From IMG/VR virus record IMGVR_UViG_3300042390_000257, positions 1 to 64,000 of that record: 64,000 nt of DNA; one strand, given 5' to 3'. The notes under the pieces were generated by a model that did no database searches, was not told the DNA's origin, and saw only the letters and a program-made list of their open reading frames with translations. The stretch is from a virus. Position 1 is the stretch's first letter, and the number at the start of each line of letters is the position of its first letter. The translations under genes were made by a program, and so were the position numbers. Shown in pieces: positions 46,757-54,467 of the stretch.

Positions 46757-48592
46757 TTAACCCTTTGGAACATCTTTATCTGTAATTTGGATTTCCTGTG
46801 CAAAACCATCAACTCCTAATTTTGATTTAAATGTTTTCTTAATCTCAAAAGTTAGGCTACTTGGTGCATCTACATTTGCTTTAGATTTAATTTCGGCCTC
46901 TACTCTTAATATGACATCTACTACTACATAATAGGAATCTTTATCTAAACTATATGTTGAGGGTAAGTATGCTCGCTCAGCGTCAGCCTGTGTCCTACCA
47001 ATTGCTTTTGCCTGCTCAAGAACTTTATTTATAGGAGTATCTACAGTCTTATCTGAAGTCTTAGAATTGTTACTTCCGTCATTTGAACCAGCACCACCAC
47101 CGTACGCATGCCATTTTCTCCAAGAATCATGATCAGTAGATGTTACCGTTGGCGGTATTACTTCTAGTAATAAAACATCTCGTGACAAACCTAGTTGGAA
47201 ACTGCCCCATGCAGGGAATCCTTCAGCAATTCCAGTTAAGGCTCTTCCGGGACCTGGCTCCGTATTAGTTATTGTTTTTGCTCCCTGTATTCCCTCAGCA
47301 TCATTAAGGTATTTTCGCCACACCCGCACTGCTGGTGTGTGGCTAATTTTAATAGAATATTTACCTTCAACAAAAGTTCTATCAATAGTACTACTAGTAC
47401 CCTCAGGGTTTGTATCATCCATAAACCCAAATCTACACAATACTTTTTCAAAACCCAAAACATCGTCAAGGTCCGAAGTATCACCACGACCATCCCATGT
47501 CGTAGCATTATCGTCGTTGTTGTCACCCGCAAGAACAAATTGGTACTTAGGCAATCCAATTAAGAGATTACGGAGAAGGTCATATTCTGCTGGGTTACCA
47601 ACAGTTGGTTGGGGGATAGCAGTTCCATCTTTGTTGGGGTTCTCAATAGCCCCCTTTAGTGAATCAGTTAGGTATGTTTTTTCTTTGGCAAAACCAATGT
47701 ATTTAGCCTCAACAGTGATGTTAATAGCGCACACCGTTGGAACCATATTCCCACTAAATTTAGAAAACAGGACATTTGAACCCTGAATGAACCCATCAAT
47801 CATAAACATTGATGAGAACACAATACGAACAGGAGTACTAATTAAGAAGGCGCTGTTGCCGAACTGGATGTTATTAAGAGCACTAGTCATTTCTTCGGCG
47901 CTTTTGTAGTTCCCAGCGGCTCCAGAAACTGATCCTCCAGCAGATGTTTCCGAGGTATCCCACGATGAACTAATACTCTGTAGTTTTGCTAATGCTGCAA
48001 TTGTTTTTTGAGTAATACCTTGACCAATAATATTATCTAGTACTTGAATGTCGGATAAGACGCCATATTTACCAGGGTTTTGCTCAATTGTAGGACTGTA
48101 CGGGGGAGTAACTACACCTTGGCTTTGGTCCTGTGCCCCAGGAAGACCAACTAATAATTCTTCACCAAAAGTTGGAGGCGCAATAAAGTTACTTTGAGCA
48201 TTAACTTCTGCCTCGCGGTTTAGAAAAACATCAAATGAGAATGTGGCATTACCTGGTGTTGCTACTGAGAACTGACCCGGGTCTTGAAGCAATGGGTTCA
48301 TTAACCCTCCAGACACAGCAACTGCTCGTTGAATCTGTTGAGGATTAAACTGAAAGAAGAAACGCGAGTTACCTAATACCCCAGCAACATCTTCACTAAA
48401 ACTACCAAGTAATGACCGCATAAAACCGCGTTGAATAATTTGTGCATTTCCGCCACCAAGATCGCGTCGGTATGGTCCTGGGTATTTAAACTCAGGGTTA
48501 TCTTCTTGAGTTCGCGTTAATGAAACGCTACCTGGACCTGCAACACCCGTTGGCAAACCAGACCATTGTTGTGATACATACTGACTAGTCAT
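46757..48592 (-). CDS. tail/baseplate protein with CIS-tube-like motif
   Basis: 611 aa. RFFFQFNPQQIQRAVAVSGGL (about residues 76-96) is the FNPxxI opening of contractile-injection-system tube or adaptor proteins; further on LISTPVRIVFSSMFMIDGFIQGS and a C-terminal beta part. Likely links tube, hub and tape measure. Ends one base from the tape-measure stop. Confidence 0.65.
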   Translation of the reverse strand: MTSQYVSQQWSGLPTGVAGPGSVSLTRTQEDNPEFKYPGPYRRDLGGGNAQIIQRGFMRSLLGSFSEDVAGVLGNSRFFFQFNPQQIQRAVAVSGGLMNPLLQDPGQFSVATPGNATFSFDVFLNREAEVNAQSNFIAPPTFGEELLVGLPGAQDQSQGVVTPPYSPTIEQNPGKYGVLSDIQVLDNIIGQGITQKTIAALAKLQSISSSWDTSETSAGGSVSGAAGNYKSAEEMTSALNNIQFGNSAFLISTPVRIVFSSMFMIDGFIQGSNVLFSKFSGNMVPTVCAINITVEAKYIGFAKEKTYLTDSLKGAIENPNKDGTAIPQPTVGNPAEYDLLRNLLIGLPKYQFVLAGDNNDDNATTWDGRGDTSDLDDVLGFEKVLCRFGFMDDTNPEGTSSTIDRTFVEGKYSIKISHTPAVRVWRKYLNDAEGIQGAKTITNTEPGPGRALTGIAEGFPAWGSFQLGLSRDVLLLEVIPPTVTSTDHDSWRKWHAYGGGAGSNDGSNNSKTSDKTVDTPINKVLEQAKAIGRTQADAERAYLPSTYSLDKDSYYVVVDVILRVEAEIKSKANVDAPSSLTFEIKKTFKSKLGVDGFAQEIQITDKDVPKG

Positions 48593-51357
48593 TACGCCAT
48601 CCTCAGTTCTTTAATGCGTATTTCTCTTTCTAAGATCATGGTAACTTCTCGTGCTATGACTTCAGCATCAACATAACTATTACCACTGCTATTAACATTA
48701 ATAACAGGTGCAATATTAAAAGTTGATCCACTTTTAAAAGTAGAAATACTTGCACCGCTACCACGAGCCGACGAACGCATGTCAGGGTCGCCAGTGTCCT
48801 TAAACCCAGCATTTACTACTGCTTGTCGGGCGGCATCAGGATTAGTGCTATACATTGGGTCTTTGCCCTTATAAGAACCCCACGCATAAAAATCTGTACC
48901 ACCCGACATCTTGAAGGCGGCTCTCATATTTACTGCTGGGTCGTATAGTTCTTCGTTACTAGATATACCAAACTGAGTTCGGCGCGACGGGCCAAGGTTA
49001 TCTATCATGTTAATTTGCATGAGACCAAATGACAGGTCTTTTGTAGCGGCATTAGGGTTATATGACCCTGCATTCCATCTACTTTCACGATAAGCAATAG
49101 CAACGGCTTTAACTAAGTTCTCACCACGGAAGCCAGCATTATATGCGTAGCGCGCTACATCCTCACCAGTTAACTGCCCACCAGACTTACTAGGTGTAGT
49201 AGAAGTAGAAACACCACGCCGTTTCCGTGGGCTACCTGAACCACCACTTAAACCAGTAGAACCTGCTAAACCACCAGCGCGGAAAGCGGCTATAGAGTCA
49301 GACATACTCATCCCAGAGAGTGATGCAAGGGTAACTCCTGATGCTGTTGTACCAGTACCACTACTGTCATTACCATTTCCGCCATGTTCAGCGTTTAATG
49401 ATGGACCAGTACTTGCGGACATAGGCTCACCACCCCAAGGGCGCCCCTGCTTCTCATATTCATAACGACCGTTAGGGAGTTCTGCTGGCTGGACATGCCA
49501 AGGCTCGCCATTAACCCCACCAAAGTGCTTTAAACCAAAGCGAGCGGCATTCGCAGTAACCCAGTCAAGGTCACCAGTAAGGTCAGCCGCAAGACCAATT
49601 TCATGCATAGATTTTCCTGGGGGTGCGGCTGGAGCGCCACTTACATGTTCCCAGTACGAACCATCCCATACCCAGTTCTTTTTACCCTCAGAGTCCGTAG
49701 GACTGGATGTCTTACGGTAACGCGAGCGGAACATTGTTTCTTGTTCAAGTTTACTACGGTAACCTGTTCCTAAGCCAACTTTGCCACCAGATGCGGTAAT
49801 TAGTTGATCCACACGCTGTTGCATAGTGGGGTGCATTTTCCCTGTGACACCCGCTGTATTCGGGTCACCAGTTCTACCCCAAGTAGGTTTGGTTCTACCA
49901 GGACCAGGACCAGGGTCACCATCCAGGGCAGTTCCAATGGCCCCCATTCCTGAACCAACTCCTATCATTGCTGCTCCGACACCAGCACCTACACCAGTCC
50001 AACCAGTAGCAATTCCGACACCTAGTCCCACTGCAGACATGATTGGTCCAACGGTTTTTAAGATTCCACCAAGCATGGCGCGCTTAGGCTTAGTCTCAAT
50101 AGCCTTACCGACAATGTCTTTCATTCGTTCTTCAAGTTTTCCAAATGTCTTTTCAAGACTTTGTGTTGCCTTTTCAAGTTTGGCAAAACTCTCTTGTTGG
50201 GTCCCGTAGAAGTCTTCTTCACGATTAGTTTTAACGCGAGTTGTCTCTTCCATTTGGGTAGAGAAGTTGTCCTCAATACCAACCATTTTTCGTTGAGCCA
50301 CACTAGATGGGTCATACATACCCTTACCACCCTTGGCACCATACTGTTGGTTTGCCATGGCGTATTGGATAACTAGGTCTTGTGTAGCGGAATCAACACC
50401 CATGTCTGCTAATCGGGCGCGAGTGTTACTTCCTTGTTGAAGAGCACCTTCAATATTTTTAAGACCAGTCAACCCTGATGATCTTGCTAGGTTCTGAATC
50501 ATTTCAGTACCTGATCGTTGACCACCACCTGGTTTATAAATGCTCATACCAGTTGTCATAAACATACGGTTAGCAGTTTGTGCGCTACCCATGTTGGTAA
50601 GCATATTTGTTACGCCTTGTGCACCAAGACTATATCCTGAAAGGGCATTTAGACCTTCTACTGAAGAGGCATTACCAAGGGCGCTAATACCAGTAGACGC
50701 CTGCATTCCTAGTAGCGTGTTGATACCACCTTCACCAAGGCGATAGTTGGTTAGTGGTTGACGATAAGCATTACGAACCCCAGCATTACTCATACCAGTA
50801 ATTTGTTGATACATAACTGACATCTTGTCGGCTGATGATGAATACTCATAACCTCGCGCAATACGAGCGTCCAGGACACCCATACCAGCACCAACAACTT
50901 GACCAACACCTTGCGCTACTGCACCAAAAGCATTGGCGGCGGCAAGTGGCTTGCTACTAGCCATTGCTTCATATCGTGCCGCATTACCACCACCACCACC
51001 AGCGCCACCACGGTTTAATCCAGCACCGCTGAGCATCCTAGACATATACCCAGGCTTAGAGGTATCATCATCAGGAGAACCATTATTCATTGATGGGTTG
51101 TTACCACTGGCTAGTGAGTCTTTATGACCACGACCACGACCACCCATAACGCCTTTAACGGCGGCACCAGCCTTACTGGCGGCTTTACTCAGCCCTTCCA
51201 TACCAGCGGTAATACCACCTAGTACGCGCTTAAATTGCTCGGCTTCTTTTATGACTGTGCCAAAACCTGACTTACCAGTACCAACTACGGGCGTGGAAGA
51301 ATCACCAAGACTTCCACCACCCGAATTAGAACCCGATATATCAAAGGGGTCAGCCAT
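48592..51357 (-). CDS. tape measure / tail lysin with two peptidoglycan hydrolase domains
   Basis: 921 aa. N-terminal 400 residues are Gly/Ala-rich with helices (tape-measure style). Residues about 520-640 hold a VanY-type carboxypeptidase: SMHEIGLAAD (H585, D592) and EPWHVQ. About 750-850 is an SLT lysozyme-like domain with YRESRWN and SFGLMQIN. The C-terminus NSSGNSYVDAEVIAREVTMIL is typical of such tail proteins. Longest virion gene, right after the chaperone, hence the tape measure; the domains would cut the wall during DNA entry. Confidence 0.85.
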   Translation of the reverse strand: MADPFDISGSNSGGGSLGDSSTPVVGTGKSGFGTVIKEAEQFKRVLGGITAGMEGLSKAASKAGAAVKGVMGGRGRGHKDSLASGNNPSMNNGSPDDDTSKPGYMSRMLSGAGLNRGGAGGGGGNAARYEAMASSKPLAAANAFGAVAQGVGQVVGAGMGVLDARIARGYEYSSSADKMSVMYQQITGMSNAGVRNAYRQPLTNYRLGEGGINTLLGMQASTGISALGNASSVEGLNALSGYSLGAQGVTNMLTNMGSAQTANRMFMTTGMSIYKPGGGQRSGTEMIQNLARSSGLTGLKNIEGALQQGSNTRARLADMGVDSATQDLVIQYAMANQQYGAKGGKGMYDPSSVAQRKMVGIEDNFSTQMEETTRVKTNREEDFYGTQQESFAKLEKATQSLEKTFGKLEERMKDIVGKAIETKPKRAMLGGILKTVGPIMSAVGLGVGIATGWTGVGAGVGAAMIGVGSGMGAIGTALDGDPGPGPGRTKPTWGRTGDPNTAGVTGKMHPTMQQRVDQLITASGGKVGLGTGYRSKLEQETMFRSRYRKTSSPTDSEGKKNWVWDGSYWEHVSGAPAAPPGKSMHEIGLAADLTGDLDWVTANAARFGLKHFGGVNGEPWHVQPAELPNGRYEYEKQGRPWGGEPMSASTGPSLNAEHGGNGNDSSGTGTTASGVTLASLSGMSMSDSIAAFRAGGLAGSTGLSGGSGSPRKRRGVSTSTTPSKSGGQLTGEDVARYAYNAGFRGENLVKAVAIAYRESRWNAGSYNPNAATKDLSFGLMQINMIDNLGPSRRTQFGISSNEELYDPAVNMRAAFKMSGGTDFYAWGSYKGKDPMYSTNPDAARQAVVNAGFKDTGDPDMRSSARGSGASISTFKSGSTFNIAPVINVNSSGNSYVDAEVIAREVTMILEREIRIKELRMA

Positions 51358-51359
51358 TA

Positions 51360-51530
51360 CTATCCTCCGCTATTAACTTGCCATCGGGACAACCTGCCCC
51401 AAAACTCCCGTTCTCGTACGGGCATGTTTTTAATCTCTGCTAAAGAAAACCCTTTATAGACGGAGGCGACTGCATTGTATTCCCAATAGATATTATCAAT
51501 ATTAACCGAATAAAAGTGAGACCCAGTCAA
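51360..51530 (-). CDS. tail assembly chaperone, downstream frame
   Basis: 56 codons counted from a TTG at 51530, though probably expressed as a frameshift extension of the gene at 51502. Contains YWEYNAVASVYKGFSLAEIK and MPVREREFWGRLSRW, the pattern of second-frame chaperone tails just before tape measure genes. Its stop is 2 bases before the tape measure ATG. Confidence 0.6.
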   Translation of the reverse strand: MTGSHFYSVNIDNIYWEYNAVASVYKGFSLAEIKNMPVREREFWGRLSRWQVNSGG

Positions 51531-52260
51531 ACATCAGTGTGATTTCTTCTCCACAATGAGCACACGGGGCATTCACCTCCCGAGGAGTCGGGCCTACTTT
51601 GGCATCAAAGATTGCAGTAATAATGGTTGAACGATCAGCAATGCTGAGGTTTCGTGCCCACTCTTCTTTATTGGGTACTGACACCTGAGCACAGCGGGCA
51701 ATCATCATCGTGTTTTGTGCCGCTAGATTCTTATTTAGTTTGCCAACACGAGCACTGTCATCCGAGGTTGGGTGATTAAAGAGCACAACTGAGCCATCTT
51801 TAAGGGTTACTTCAATTGACTTACGGGCCAATTCTTGGTTACCTTCAATAGGGAAGTCGTCATACAGGTCAATCAACAAATCGTTGGATTGTGAACAATG
51901 CGGGCAAATAACTTTAAATTCACGAACTTTTCCGTATGTTGCACGAATAATTGCCAAGAACAAAAGATCACGGTCACCCACGATTAGTTCGTTCAAAACA
52001 TTTGGTGTTTCCTTAATATCTGTTTCACCTAAAGAGACAACTGCTCGCTTGAGTAGCGCCAGTGAATACTCACCGTAGTTACCCGTACGAGATTCAACCT
52101 CAGCGAGGAACTCTTCGTCCCCACCAGTCATTTCTCGTACAACCGCGGTATCAAGCCATTCATTACCTAACTTGATACCCCGAATAAGTTTTACTGATGT
52201 ATCGGGTGCTTTGGACATCACCGGAGGTTTATCCGATGACATCGTACTGATGTCTGACAT
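51502..52260 (-). CDS. tail assembly chaperone-like protein, first frame
   Basis: 252 aa. Ends CAHCGEEITLMFDWVSLLFG, with a second CPHC pair near residue 124: a zinc site. Body has conserved WLDTAVVREMTGGDEEFL, as in T4 gp26-like/hub-chaperone proteins of actinophages. It sits between tube and tape measure, the standard place. The end overlaps a second frame shifted by +1, see the downstream frame. Confidence 0.7.
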   Translation of the reverse strand: MSDISTMSSDKPPVMSKAPDTSVKLIRGIKLGNEWLDTAVVREMTGGDEEFLAEVESRTGNYGEYSLALLKRAVVSLGETDIKETPNVLNELIVGDRDLLFLAIIRATYGKVREFKVICPHCSQSNDLLIDLYDDFPIEGNQELARKSIEVTLKDGSVVLFNHPTSDDSARVGKLNKNLAAQNTMMIARCAQVSVPNKEEWARNLSIADRSTIITAIFDAKVGPTPREVNAPCAHCGEEITLMFDWVSLLFG

Positions 52261-52281: not shown

Positions 52282-52905
52282 TTAGACTGTTGCGTTAGCG
52301 TTATCAGGAGTCCAGTTGATAACGAAACCTTCGTGGTTAACCGTCATCTGCTGAATCATGATTGAACTGTTACCAGCATTGAGGTCACCCAATGCAAAGC
52401 CAGCGGGCCACGCATTGTAGATAGTGTACTCAAGTGCCTTGGTACCAGGGACCACATTTTGTGTTAACGAACCAGGGTTGGTGGCATATCCACCAGTGCC
52501 ACCAGCAGTAGCACTGGTTGCCGAGTGAGGGTGGTCATAGACCGACACGACGATGTCACATCGGTAGTCTGAGACTGCGCCACGGCTACCATTGTTACCT
52601 GGAACAGCCTGAACCCATGCATGCATGAATTGTTGCCATGCCCACAATTGGTCCTGCTTGGCGAAAACACCACGGCTGAAGGTAATCGGGTTAAAGTCAG
52701 TCTGACCAATCATCTTGTGCGGATGAGTGTTCATGCCACCTTCGCGGTACGGGACCATTTCGTTAGTAACGCTTAGTCCAGTCACCACTGCGAAACCAAG
52801 GTTACCAATGTCCCTGGTAAGGGCTGACAAGTTTTCGTCGTACGGTTGAATTTTAACCGTAAACTTAAAGTCGCGTAGCGGATCGGTACGAGTTAAAAAG
52901 GCCAT
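52282..52905 (-). CDS. tail tube protein (gp19-like)
   Basis: 207 aa from the ATG at 52905 (AAGGAG 4 bases upstream). DFKFTVKIQP start, FAVVTGLSVTNEMVPYREGGMN (the conserved GLxxxxxxxxYREGG block) and a late WPAGFALGDLNAG are typical of contractile tail tube proteins. Directly after the sheath, as usual. Confidence 0.9.
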   Translation of the reverse strand: MAFLTRTDPLRDFKFTVKIQPYDENLSALTRDIGNLGFAVVTGLSVTNEMVPYREGGMNTHPHKMIGQTDFNPITFSRGVFAKQDQLWAWQQFMHAWVQAVPGNNGSRGAVSDYRCDIVVSVYDHPHSATSATAGGTGGYATNPGSLTQNVVPGTKALEYTIYNAWPAGFALGDLNAGNSSIMIQQMTVNHEGFVINWTPDNANATV

Positions 52906-52913
52906 GTTTCTCC

Positions 52914-54467
52914 TTAGATATTCTCGGCAGTGGTTGATCCGCCGAGCCATTGACTGACATTGATAATGATAAATTCTGCGGGGTACAGCAACGATACACC
53001 AATCTCTATATTTACTTCACCATCGTCAATTGATGTCTGAGTGTTGTTGGTTGAGTTACAAACAACATAAAACGCCTCAGATGGTGTGCGTCCACGCAAT
53101 CCACCAGAACCCCAGAAGTCACTCAAGAACTTTTCCAACTTCAGGCTGATAGAACTCCACAAACGCTCATCGTTAGGTTCAAACACTGCAAACTCAGTCA
53201 AGAACTTTGAAGTGCTCTTGACATAGTTCAATGAACGACGAACCGAGATGTACTTGTCAGGACGAATCTTGTTTAGGGTACGAGCACCTTGAACAACAAC
53301 ACCAGCGCCAGGGATGGCTTTAAAGGTGTTAATACCAGCCTCATACATGGTTCCGACTTCTGCTTGGGTGTAAGCAGAAGTGACACCAAGAGCGTTACGG
53401 ATGTCAATGTTGTAACCAGCAGGTGGCTTAGCGACAGTGCGCTCAGTCTCTAGGCGAGCGTAGATACCAGCAATTGCTCCACCTGGGAAGGTGTCACGAA
53501 TTGCGCCAACGCCTGACTTAGTTGGGTCAGCCATCTTAAGCATGGGCCAGTAAACAGCACCATAACCCTGGTTGGTACTGTAACCACTAGCGGTGGTGAT
53601 AGCCAAACCAGCGGTGGTGTCAGAAACTTTGGGGTCAATGATTGCAAAGCAGTCACCGCGGTTAGCACAGACTTCCAAAACTTTAGCAACAATCACGCTG
53701 TCGGACTGACCAACGGCGTTAACAATGAGTGATTCAGGAAGTGTTACTAACTTATCAAGTGCGGTGGCAAATGAAGCAGAAGCCGCACCTGAACCGTCGT
53801 AACCGCCCGTTAACGCCTTAGCAGTACCCGCATTAATTAGGGTAAAACCAGCGGCGGGAACAACCGAGGCTAGGTTTGTAATTGTAATGTACGACGAATA
53901 GTTATTTACAATTGCCGTTGCATAACGATTACTGGCGGGGTCAGGGCTTAGTTCTGACCAATATTCCACTTCAGTTCCATTGTAAGTAACTGAGAGGTTG
54001 AATGTCGGCAATGTTCCGGAAGTTCCACCAATCGTTGGTGCAACGAGCGTAACTTGTCCAGTCGTTGGTGTAACACTAATGTTGTTACCATGAGTACCAA
54101 CGCTAGTTGCCTGAACATTAAACAATACTGCTGGTGTTGAGGCGGCTGTAGACGCCGTGTAGTTCATCACAGAAGCGCCAGTGGCGGCAAGTGCGACAGA
54201 GGCACCACTTGCAACATAGGCACGAGTGACATAACAGTTACGACCACCATTAGCAAAGTACTGATAGACGGCATAACCGAGGTCATAGTCCTGTGAGAGG
54301 TCACCAAATTGCGAGGTATAACCTGACCAAGAATTAATCAGGGTTGGGGTACTTGGTCCACGCAACGAAGTACCCACAAAAGCGGCTGTTGAGGTACCAG
54401 TATTACGGGCTACGGTTGTCTTTAACGGAGATTCTGTAACATAGACTCCGGGGCGGGTATAAGCCAT
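52914..54467 (-). CDS. tail sheath protein
   Basis: 517 aa. MAYTRPGVYVTESPL start, PSTPTLINSWSGYTSQFG, GRNCYVTRAY, and a C-terminal half with KFLTEFAVFEPNDERLW and PSEAFYVVCNSTNN...VNIEIGVSLLYPAEFI are diagnostic. Contracts on infection. It identifies the phage as a myovirus. Confidence 0.95.
   Translation of the reverse strand: MAYTRPGVYVTESPLKTTVARNTGTSTAAFVGTSLRGPSTPTLINSWSGYTSQFGDLSQDYDLGYAVYQYFANGGRNCYVTRAYVASGASVALAATGASVMNYTASTAASTPAVLFNVQATSVGTHGNNISVTPTTGQVTLVAPTIGGTSGTLPTFNLSVTYNGTEVEYWSELSPDPASNRYATAIVNNYSSYITITNLASVVPAAGFTLINAGTAKALTGGYDGSGAASASFATALDKLVTLPESLIVNAVGQSDSVIVAKVLEVCANRGDCFAIIDPKVSDTTAGLAITTASGYSTNQGYGAVYWPMLKMADPTKSGVGAIRDTFPGGAIAGIYARLETERTVAKPPAGYNIDIRNALGVTSAYTQAEVGTMYEAGINTFKAIPGAGVVVQGARTLNKIRPDKYISVRRSLNYVKSTSKFLTEFAVFEPNDERLWSSISLKLEKFLSDFWGSGGLRGRTPSEAFYVVCNSTNNTQTSIDDGEVNIEIGVSLLYPAEFIIINVSQWLGGSTTAENI

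Follow-up and report, generated by a model that had tools for sequence, protein, structure and literature searches.

The sequence comparisons described here make it very probable that a tail gene in the window (64,000 nucleotides, positions 1 to 64,000 of IMG/VR record IMGVR_UViG_3300042390_000257) produces two forms of a T4 gp26-type assembly chaperone of a contractile-tailed phage, a short one and a longer, +1-frameshifted one. The genes concerned are on the minus strand between 54467 and 48592, in the order sheath, tube, PF12322 chaperone-like gene and tape measure. The sheath gene (52914..54467), which denotes a contractile tail, was identified by profile matches to PF04984 and PF17482, and the tube gene (52282..52950) by a match to PF06841 (T4 gp19; E 8.1e-24). 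ORF1 (51502..52260) encodes 252 aa with two CxxC pairs and would be the short (G-like) form of the chaperone; it belongs to PF12322 (T4_baseplate) and phrog_150, with 53.5 bits against the Pfam profile (cutoff 24.5) over residues 75-201. The gene that follows (48592..51357, 921 aa) was named tape measure from its position and length. ORF1, flanked by the gp19-like tube gene upstream and the tape measure gene downstream, thus occupies the position of a G/GT-type gene. The tape measure protein also carries VanY (D-Ala-D-Ala carboxypeptidase) and SLT lysozyme-like hydrolase domains. No tRNA genes were found within the window.

The 3' end of ORF1 reads GAC TGG GTC TCA CTT TTA TTC GGT TAA, with the TAA at 51504-51502 directly after the residues LLFG. 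A second frame is open from 51533, continues as TAT TCG GTT AAT ATT GAT AAT ATC TAT TGG GAA TAC, and ends with the TAG at 51362-51360, two bases short of the tape measure ATG (51357-51355). Both ends had been given in the initial annotation, and both coordinates are correct. The putative C-terminal extension encoded in this frame (ORF2, T-like, 51360..51515) includes near its end a GGAGG (51364..51368) that probably serves the tape measure gene as its ribosome site. Frame arithmetic places ORF2 in +1 relative to ORF1, which is equivalent to -2. The annotation had located this offset at CTT-TTA, and a CTTTTA is indeed found at 51516-51511, with both CTT and TTA in phase with ORF1. It had also judged the second frame to have no good start. 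The sole ATG, GTG or TTG ahead of the conserved core is the TTG at 51530-51528, and no Shine-Dalgarno (SD)-like sequence is present in the 16 bases upstream of it (GAAATCACACTGATGT); the ATG at 51425 and the TTG at 51392 fall within the core or after it.

We propose that the majority of ribosomes would terminate at 51502, giving the 252-aa short form, and that a minority would slip one base forward at CTT_TTA (51511..51516). The P-site tRNA-Leu would move from CTT (51516-51514, CUU) to TTT (51515-51513, UUU), one base would be passed over, and TAT would be the next codon read. The +1-frame extension would then be appended, resulting in a predicted fusion product of 299 aa. Taking lambda gpG/gpGT as the model, we would expect the short form to coat the tape measure protein and the extension to bring in subunits of the tail tube. 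That the +1 frame overlaps ORF1, is under coding selection, lacks a usable start and is accompanied by a conserved site can be read from the sequences themselves; the slippage event we infer from their conservation, and a low shift efficiency, as in lambda, would be the natural reading. The likeness to lambda lies in a chaperone gene ahead of the tape measure with a short product and a minority, C-terminally extended one (PMC5009743). The two differ in that lambda shifts by -1, whereas the window would shift by +1 on a four-base site, in a member of the T4 gp26-like family with two CxxC pairs.

We have searched for relatives of ORF1 by tblastn against named phages, which gave six records, all of them Streptomyces phages of the BRock kind. 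Scans of IMG/VR, together with one scan of GTDB genomes, led to 275 loci, the window included. Since three of the scans retained the best 80 of at least 448, at least 547 and at least 551 relatives, and a further scan for cyanophages the best 80 of at least 598, the counts that follow apply to the sampled loci. A profile search over all three forward frames located ORF1 in 274 of the 275 sampled loci and a homologous ORF2 in 269. The six loci with no called extension comprise four in which 20 bases or fewer separate the end of ORF1 from the edge of the available sequence (L023, L048, L191 and L259), a spurious match (L274), and the window's own record again, with no ORF1 match (L026). Many loci are overlapping stretches of one contig, and distinct junctions were taken as the fair counting unit: the 269 loci comprise 127 distinct 66-base junctions, and ORF1 forms 106, 62, 28 and 12 clusters at 90, 70, 50 and 40% identity.

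In all 269 loci ORF2 overlaps ORF1 and is in the +1 frame. As controls, we have compared neighboring genes, using one locus per 50% cluster wherever a neighbor was identifiable. Relative to ORF2, the next long gene was spread over the three frames as 10/10/7, and the split for ORF1 relative to the preceding gene was 11/9/6. Neighboring genes shift frame freely and the ORF1-ORF2 frame is locked, which is more than chance. A -1 shift on an X_XXY_YYZ heptamer would place the extension in -1, and this was the case in none of the 269. The order tube, chaperone, tape measure also appears in the gene tables of BRock, LuckySocke, GiJojo, SP-15 and LIS04; the tape measure is so named only in that of LIS04, and in the other four it was taken from size and place. 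The comparison of relatives agrees with the tail assembly chaperone role ahead of the tape measure that had been assigned to the gene at the outset.

Past the ORF1 stop, it is mostly the third codon positions of the +1 frame that diverge in ORF2. For pairs similar in length and sharing 70-97% ORF1 identity, pN/pS in ORF2 was 0.161 in the window's group (19 pairs) and 0.204 over 173 pairs. Judged by these substitution patterns, ORF2 is under purifying selection. A selected frame of this kind might be a small gene in its own right, with a non-AUG start codon or with initiation coupled to the ORF1 stop. The gene tables of BRock, LuckySocke, GiJojo and SP-15 present it in this way, with a small gene and its own start annotated over ORF2, and the extension is joined to the chaperone in none of the seven phage gene tables examined (BRock, LuckySocke, GiJojo, pSt2308, SP-15, LIS04 and GXN1). 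In a distant huge phage (LR756511), moreover, an ATG overlaps the ORF1 stop. Some ATG, GTG or TTG lies ahead of the ORF2 core in 77 of the 127 junctions, but there is none in the remaining 50, and a start accompanied by an SD-like stretch (four or more matching bases) was found for ORF2 in 14 of 127 compared with 123 of 127 for ORF1, for which the best start anywhere in the first 80 codons was chosen, a control biased in favor of ORF1. These counts make independent initiation a poor explanation of ORF2. A free gene, furthermore, need not hold one frame, yet ORF2 holds +1 throughout and the neighboring genes occupy all frames; in the window, its only candidate start would be the TTG at 51530, which has no SD. 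A separate gene would also leave the conserved CTT_Y or TTT_C inside ORF1 unexplained, and we regard it as very unlikely.

This conservation favors the +1 shift. An in-phase CTT_Y(TA) or TTT_C is present within 20 codons of the ORF1 stop in 127 of 127 distinct junctions. The window's subgroup (39 distinct junctions) has CTT followed by YTA in every case, as CTTTTA in 27 and CTTCTA in 12, always four codons before the stop. In the sister subgroup, an in-phase TTT_C occurs in 88/88 distinct junctions; one junction with both words (L147) was assigned to this group by distance to the stop. Taking one sequence per 70% cluster of the TTT_C group (40 rows), TTTC is invariant at all four positions (40/40) and the two bases after it carry 0.39 and 0.28 bits, making it a four-base island amid variable sequence. 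The codon after TTT starts with C in all 88 junctions and encodes R in 43, Q in 32, L in 10 and P in 3. The base is thus kept and its meaning is not. In the ORF1 bodies, TTT makes up 32% of the Phe codons in the TTT_C group and CTT makes up 24% of the Leu codons in the window's group.

Both words let the P-site tRNA re-pair one base forward, from CUU to UUY and from UUU to UUC. By inspection, the slip codon of the window is as far from the conserved Y.EY of ORF2 as that of the Streptomyces phages, which puts the two words at homologous places; other members differ in this spacing. In the ORF1 tree, CTT_Y and TTT_C are on opposite sides of a single branch (support 100/99). The slip from CTT to TTT that the initial annotation had proposed thus appears borne out by the relatives in both direction and site.

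The same frame would be reached by a -2 ribosomal shift, with one extra residue. Phage Mu uses such a shift (PMC5009743), and the frame arithmetic is the same for -2 and +1. However, base-pairing reasoning indicates that at CTG TTT C and TCA CTT YTA the codons reached by a two-base step backwards (TGT and CAC) would pair badly with the P-site tRNA, and the C that always follows TTT is accounted for by a +1 slip to TTC and not by -2. A -2 shift is therefore highly improbable. Slippage of the RNA polymerase, which would add or drop a base in some transcripts, might be suggested by the T-rich site (CTTTTA), but it is the least probable of the three explanations, the T runs in the window's subgroup being just two to four long and interrupted by CTTCTA in 12 of 39 junctions.

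The proposed +1 site shares its slip codon with that of RF2, for which a 2016 review describes CUU_U as the +1 site and the most efficient one tested, with UUU_U in a minority of species (PMC5009743). CTT_T occurs in the window and in 27 of its group's 39 junctions, and CTT_C in the other 12. In RF2 a stop occupies the A site, whereas the A-site codon here is TTA or CTA; the ORF1 stop is four codons from the slip codon, and there is no clear upstream Shine-Dalgarno stimulator. TTA, at 11.5 per thousand, is not very rare in the window. A second in-frame CTT_TTG is found in the middle of ORF1 at 51961-51966 of the minus strand (GAT CTT TTG TTC). Within ORF1 of the family, CTT_T is mildly under-represented (24 observed versus 33.6 expected), and avoidance of TTTC is weak or none (17 versus 19.3). 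An in-frame CTT_T that is hardly avoided within ORF1 means that the word alone cannot be very efficient.

Taking one sequence per 70% cluster, we obtained no clear signal of a stimulatory RNA structure in the 46 or 66 bases that follow the site. The mean folding z was 0.05 and 0.25, respectively, in class A and -0.42 and -0.49 in class B, with a standard error of about 0.2; there may be a weak downstream folding effect in class B. For the upstream 60 bases, the mean z was -0.41 and -0.53, and controls ranged from -0.36 to 0.11. A search for an SD-like stimulator likewise gave no clear signal, the anti-SD pairing having a mean percentile of 0.37 (class A) and 0.43 (class B) versus control positions. 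In having no evident stimulator the sites resemble the influenza PA-X shift (UUU_CGU), and the sister subgroup most often has TTT followed by CGN (43/88). PA-X differs in its eukaryotic ribosome and its unrelated gene.

We have then compared ORF1 and ORF2 with gp26 and gp51 of T4, which have been described as hub assembly chaperones, gp51 being essential and of unknown function (PMC3004832). With PF12322, T4 gp26 scores 215.6 bits and gp51 177.5, and the BRock protein scores 33.4. The match covers gp26 completely (residues 1-206 of 208) and gp51 over residues 1-201 of 249, leaving a C-terminal tail of about 48 aa that resembles ORF2. Comparing ORF1 by hhalign with the single T4 gp26 and gp51 sequences returned short cysteine stretches only (probabilities 13.5 and 7.5), so family membership rests on Pfam and PHROG. 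In profile comparisons, ORF2 matched the short gp51 of cyanophages (score 30.2, E 2.4e-5; reached in 0/60 column shuffles, maximum 17.6), and the latter matched the tails of T4-like gp51 (60.5, E 1.4e-11). The direct match between ORF2 and the gp51 tails was weaker (22.0, E 0.0008; 0/60 shuffles, maximum 14.0). The tail comparisons used 13 T4-like gp51 rows, less L286, which was out of frame. A control against the rest of gp51 gave 14.6 over 11 columns, reached in 2/60 shuffles. The phrog_150 spans (gp51 13-280, gp26 14-235, Bellamy short gp51 244-281) agree with these comparisons. On these profile scores, the extension is homologous to the gp51 C-terminus. No PDB sequence matched gp51 at E 0.01. 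The likeness to T4 thus consists of a shared Pfam family and a gp51 tail like ORF2, but in T4 the short and long forms are two genes, whereas in the window's half of the family the long form would arise by a +1 shift.

In cyanophages and KVP40 the arrangement is different again. The 82 loci (L303-L384) give 80 distinct junctions, and the short gp51 is in -1 in 80 of 80; every gp26 has an in-phase T_TTT_TTC three codons before its stop. The 80 loci taken from IMG/VR are 72-96% identical to one query gp26; being mostly close relatives, they make the uniform site weaker evidence than the count implies. An ATG in the gp51 frame follows within 14 bases of the gp26 stop in 78 of the 80 junctions, and this, together with the close kinship, leaves -1 frameshifting in cyanophages and KVP40 as a candidate only. 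The other two junctions (L360 and L373) have no such ATG, which favors a putative -1 frameshift product at least there. In the sampled loci the extension follows T_TTT_TTC in -1, whereas that of the window is in +1.

A more distant set of 40 loci was assembled around Bacillus phage SP-15, Listeria phage LIS04, GXN1, two huge phages and IMG/VR contigs; three were cut by contig ends and six were duplicates, leaving 31 distinct ones. The extension was here chosen as the longer open frame and not by profile, and it was in +1 in 27 of 31 and in -1 in 4 (L276 and L417-L419). In 21 of the 27 +1 junctions an in-phase TTTC lies somewhere in the overlap, a site count that carries no chance level, and two have TTT_T only (L301 and L416). 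Four others (L404, L407, L409 and L413) have no YTT_Y and share AAT CCC AGT; the CCC_A in it could be another +1 word. Among the -1 rows, L418 and L419 have the in-phase heptamer TTTTTTC, L417 has TTTTTTT, and L276 has none. L276, from huge phage LR756511, is the one member of the tree's +1 half found to deviate, its extension-like ORF lying in -1 and its ATG overlapping the ORF1 stop as TAATGG.

We have placed 75 proteins in one tree: 28 cluster representatives, the 31 distant ones, 7 of the 82 from cyanophages and KVP40, and 9 T4-like gp26/gp51. A half with -1 extensions and separate genes (19 rows) is split from a +1 half (55 rows plus L276) with support 100/100; the root is arbitrary, and the long branches of two gp26 rows and an uneven composition call for caution. 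We lean towards a reading in which the gp26-like family divides into a +1 half (CUU_Y and UUU_C, occasionally UUU_U or CCC_A; phages of actinobacteria, Bacillus and Listeria and many uncultured lineages) and a -1 half (U_UUU_UUC; cyanophages and KVP40, with the separate gp26 and gp51 of T4 nested inside), with roughly a single change of direction, at one and the same U-rich spot. If this is true, the family could be a natural experiment on the evolution of frameshift direction.

A 2022 paper by Vladimirov, Gautam and Davidson (Virology 566:9-15) reportedly identified T4-like tail assembly chaperone genes and, judging from its title, argues for another mechanism. Vladimirov et al. 2022 is cited elsewhere for short and long gene copies (PMC10885494) and for poly-T -1 signals in T4-like chaperone genes (PMC12846349). 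The gp26/gp51 reading, with its chaperone role, and the -1 case were thus both anticipated in earlier literature. The 2016 review describes lambda-type chaperone frameshifting as widely conserved, with T4 as the exception, and lists -1, -2 or +1 shifts among tailed-phage chaperones (PMC5009743). It regards the shift of HSTV-2 as very likely +1; this haloarchaeal myovirus shares with the window its tail type, the proposed +1 direction and the chaperone position (PMC5009743, PMC8211752). Our literature search, which covered titles and abstract openings, returned no +1 paper on the gp26-like family, in a setting where "+1" is unsearchable and subscription papers are mostly missing. The whole text of the BRock genome announcement does not mention a frameshift.

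Systems of this kind are therefore known. Within the literature covered, the proposed +1 form and its pair of slip words are new, and what makes them valuable is how broadly and cleanly they are conserved and how they contrast with the -1 half. A large branch of the chaperone family of T4, the phage that had been called the exception, keeps a minimal +1 site with no evident stimulator. A passage in PMC10885494 states that no general motif for forward shifts had been identified so far; the 127 distinct junctions offer YUU_Y as a consensus. They also correct the annotation, as the extension would belong with the chaperone to which the gene tables leave it unjoined. The recorded hosts are Bacillus subtilis W-23 for SP-15 and Streptomyces lividans for LuckySocke, which makes the proposed shift testable in laboratory hosts.

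Some of the sampled loci are filed under genomes of cellular organisms. Three contigs of 4.5-10 kb with this phage tail locus (L263, L265 and L267) are listed in GTDB under Bacillota, Acidobacteria and Pacearchaeota MAGs and are probably phage contigs that were assigned to the wrong genome in binning; the contig of L265 and that of an IMG/VR locus (L079) are equally long (9,944). Two further loci (L264 and L272) are in actinobacterial chromosomes and have, by eye, the sheath, the chaperone with its +1 extension and the tape measure, the tube being seen in L272. Their tape measure genes contain NlpC/P60-like stretches, and by the same inspection these loci would be prophages or phage-tail-like particles.
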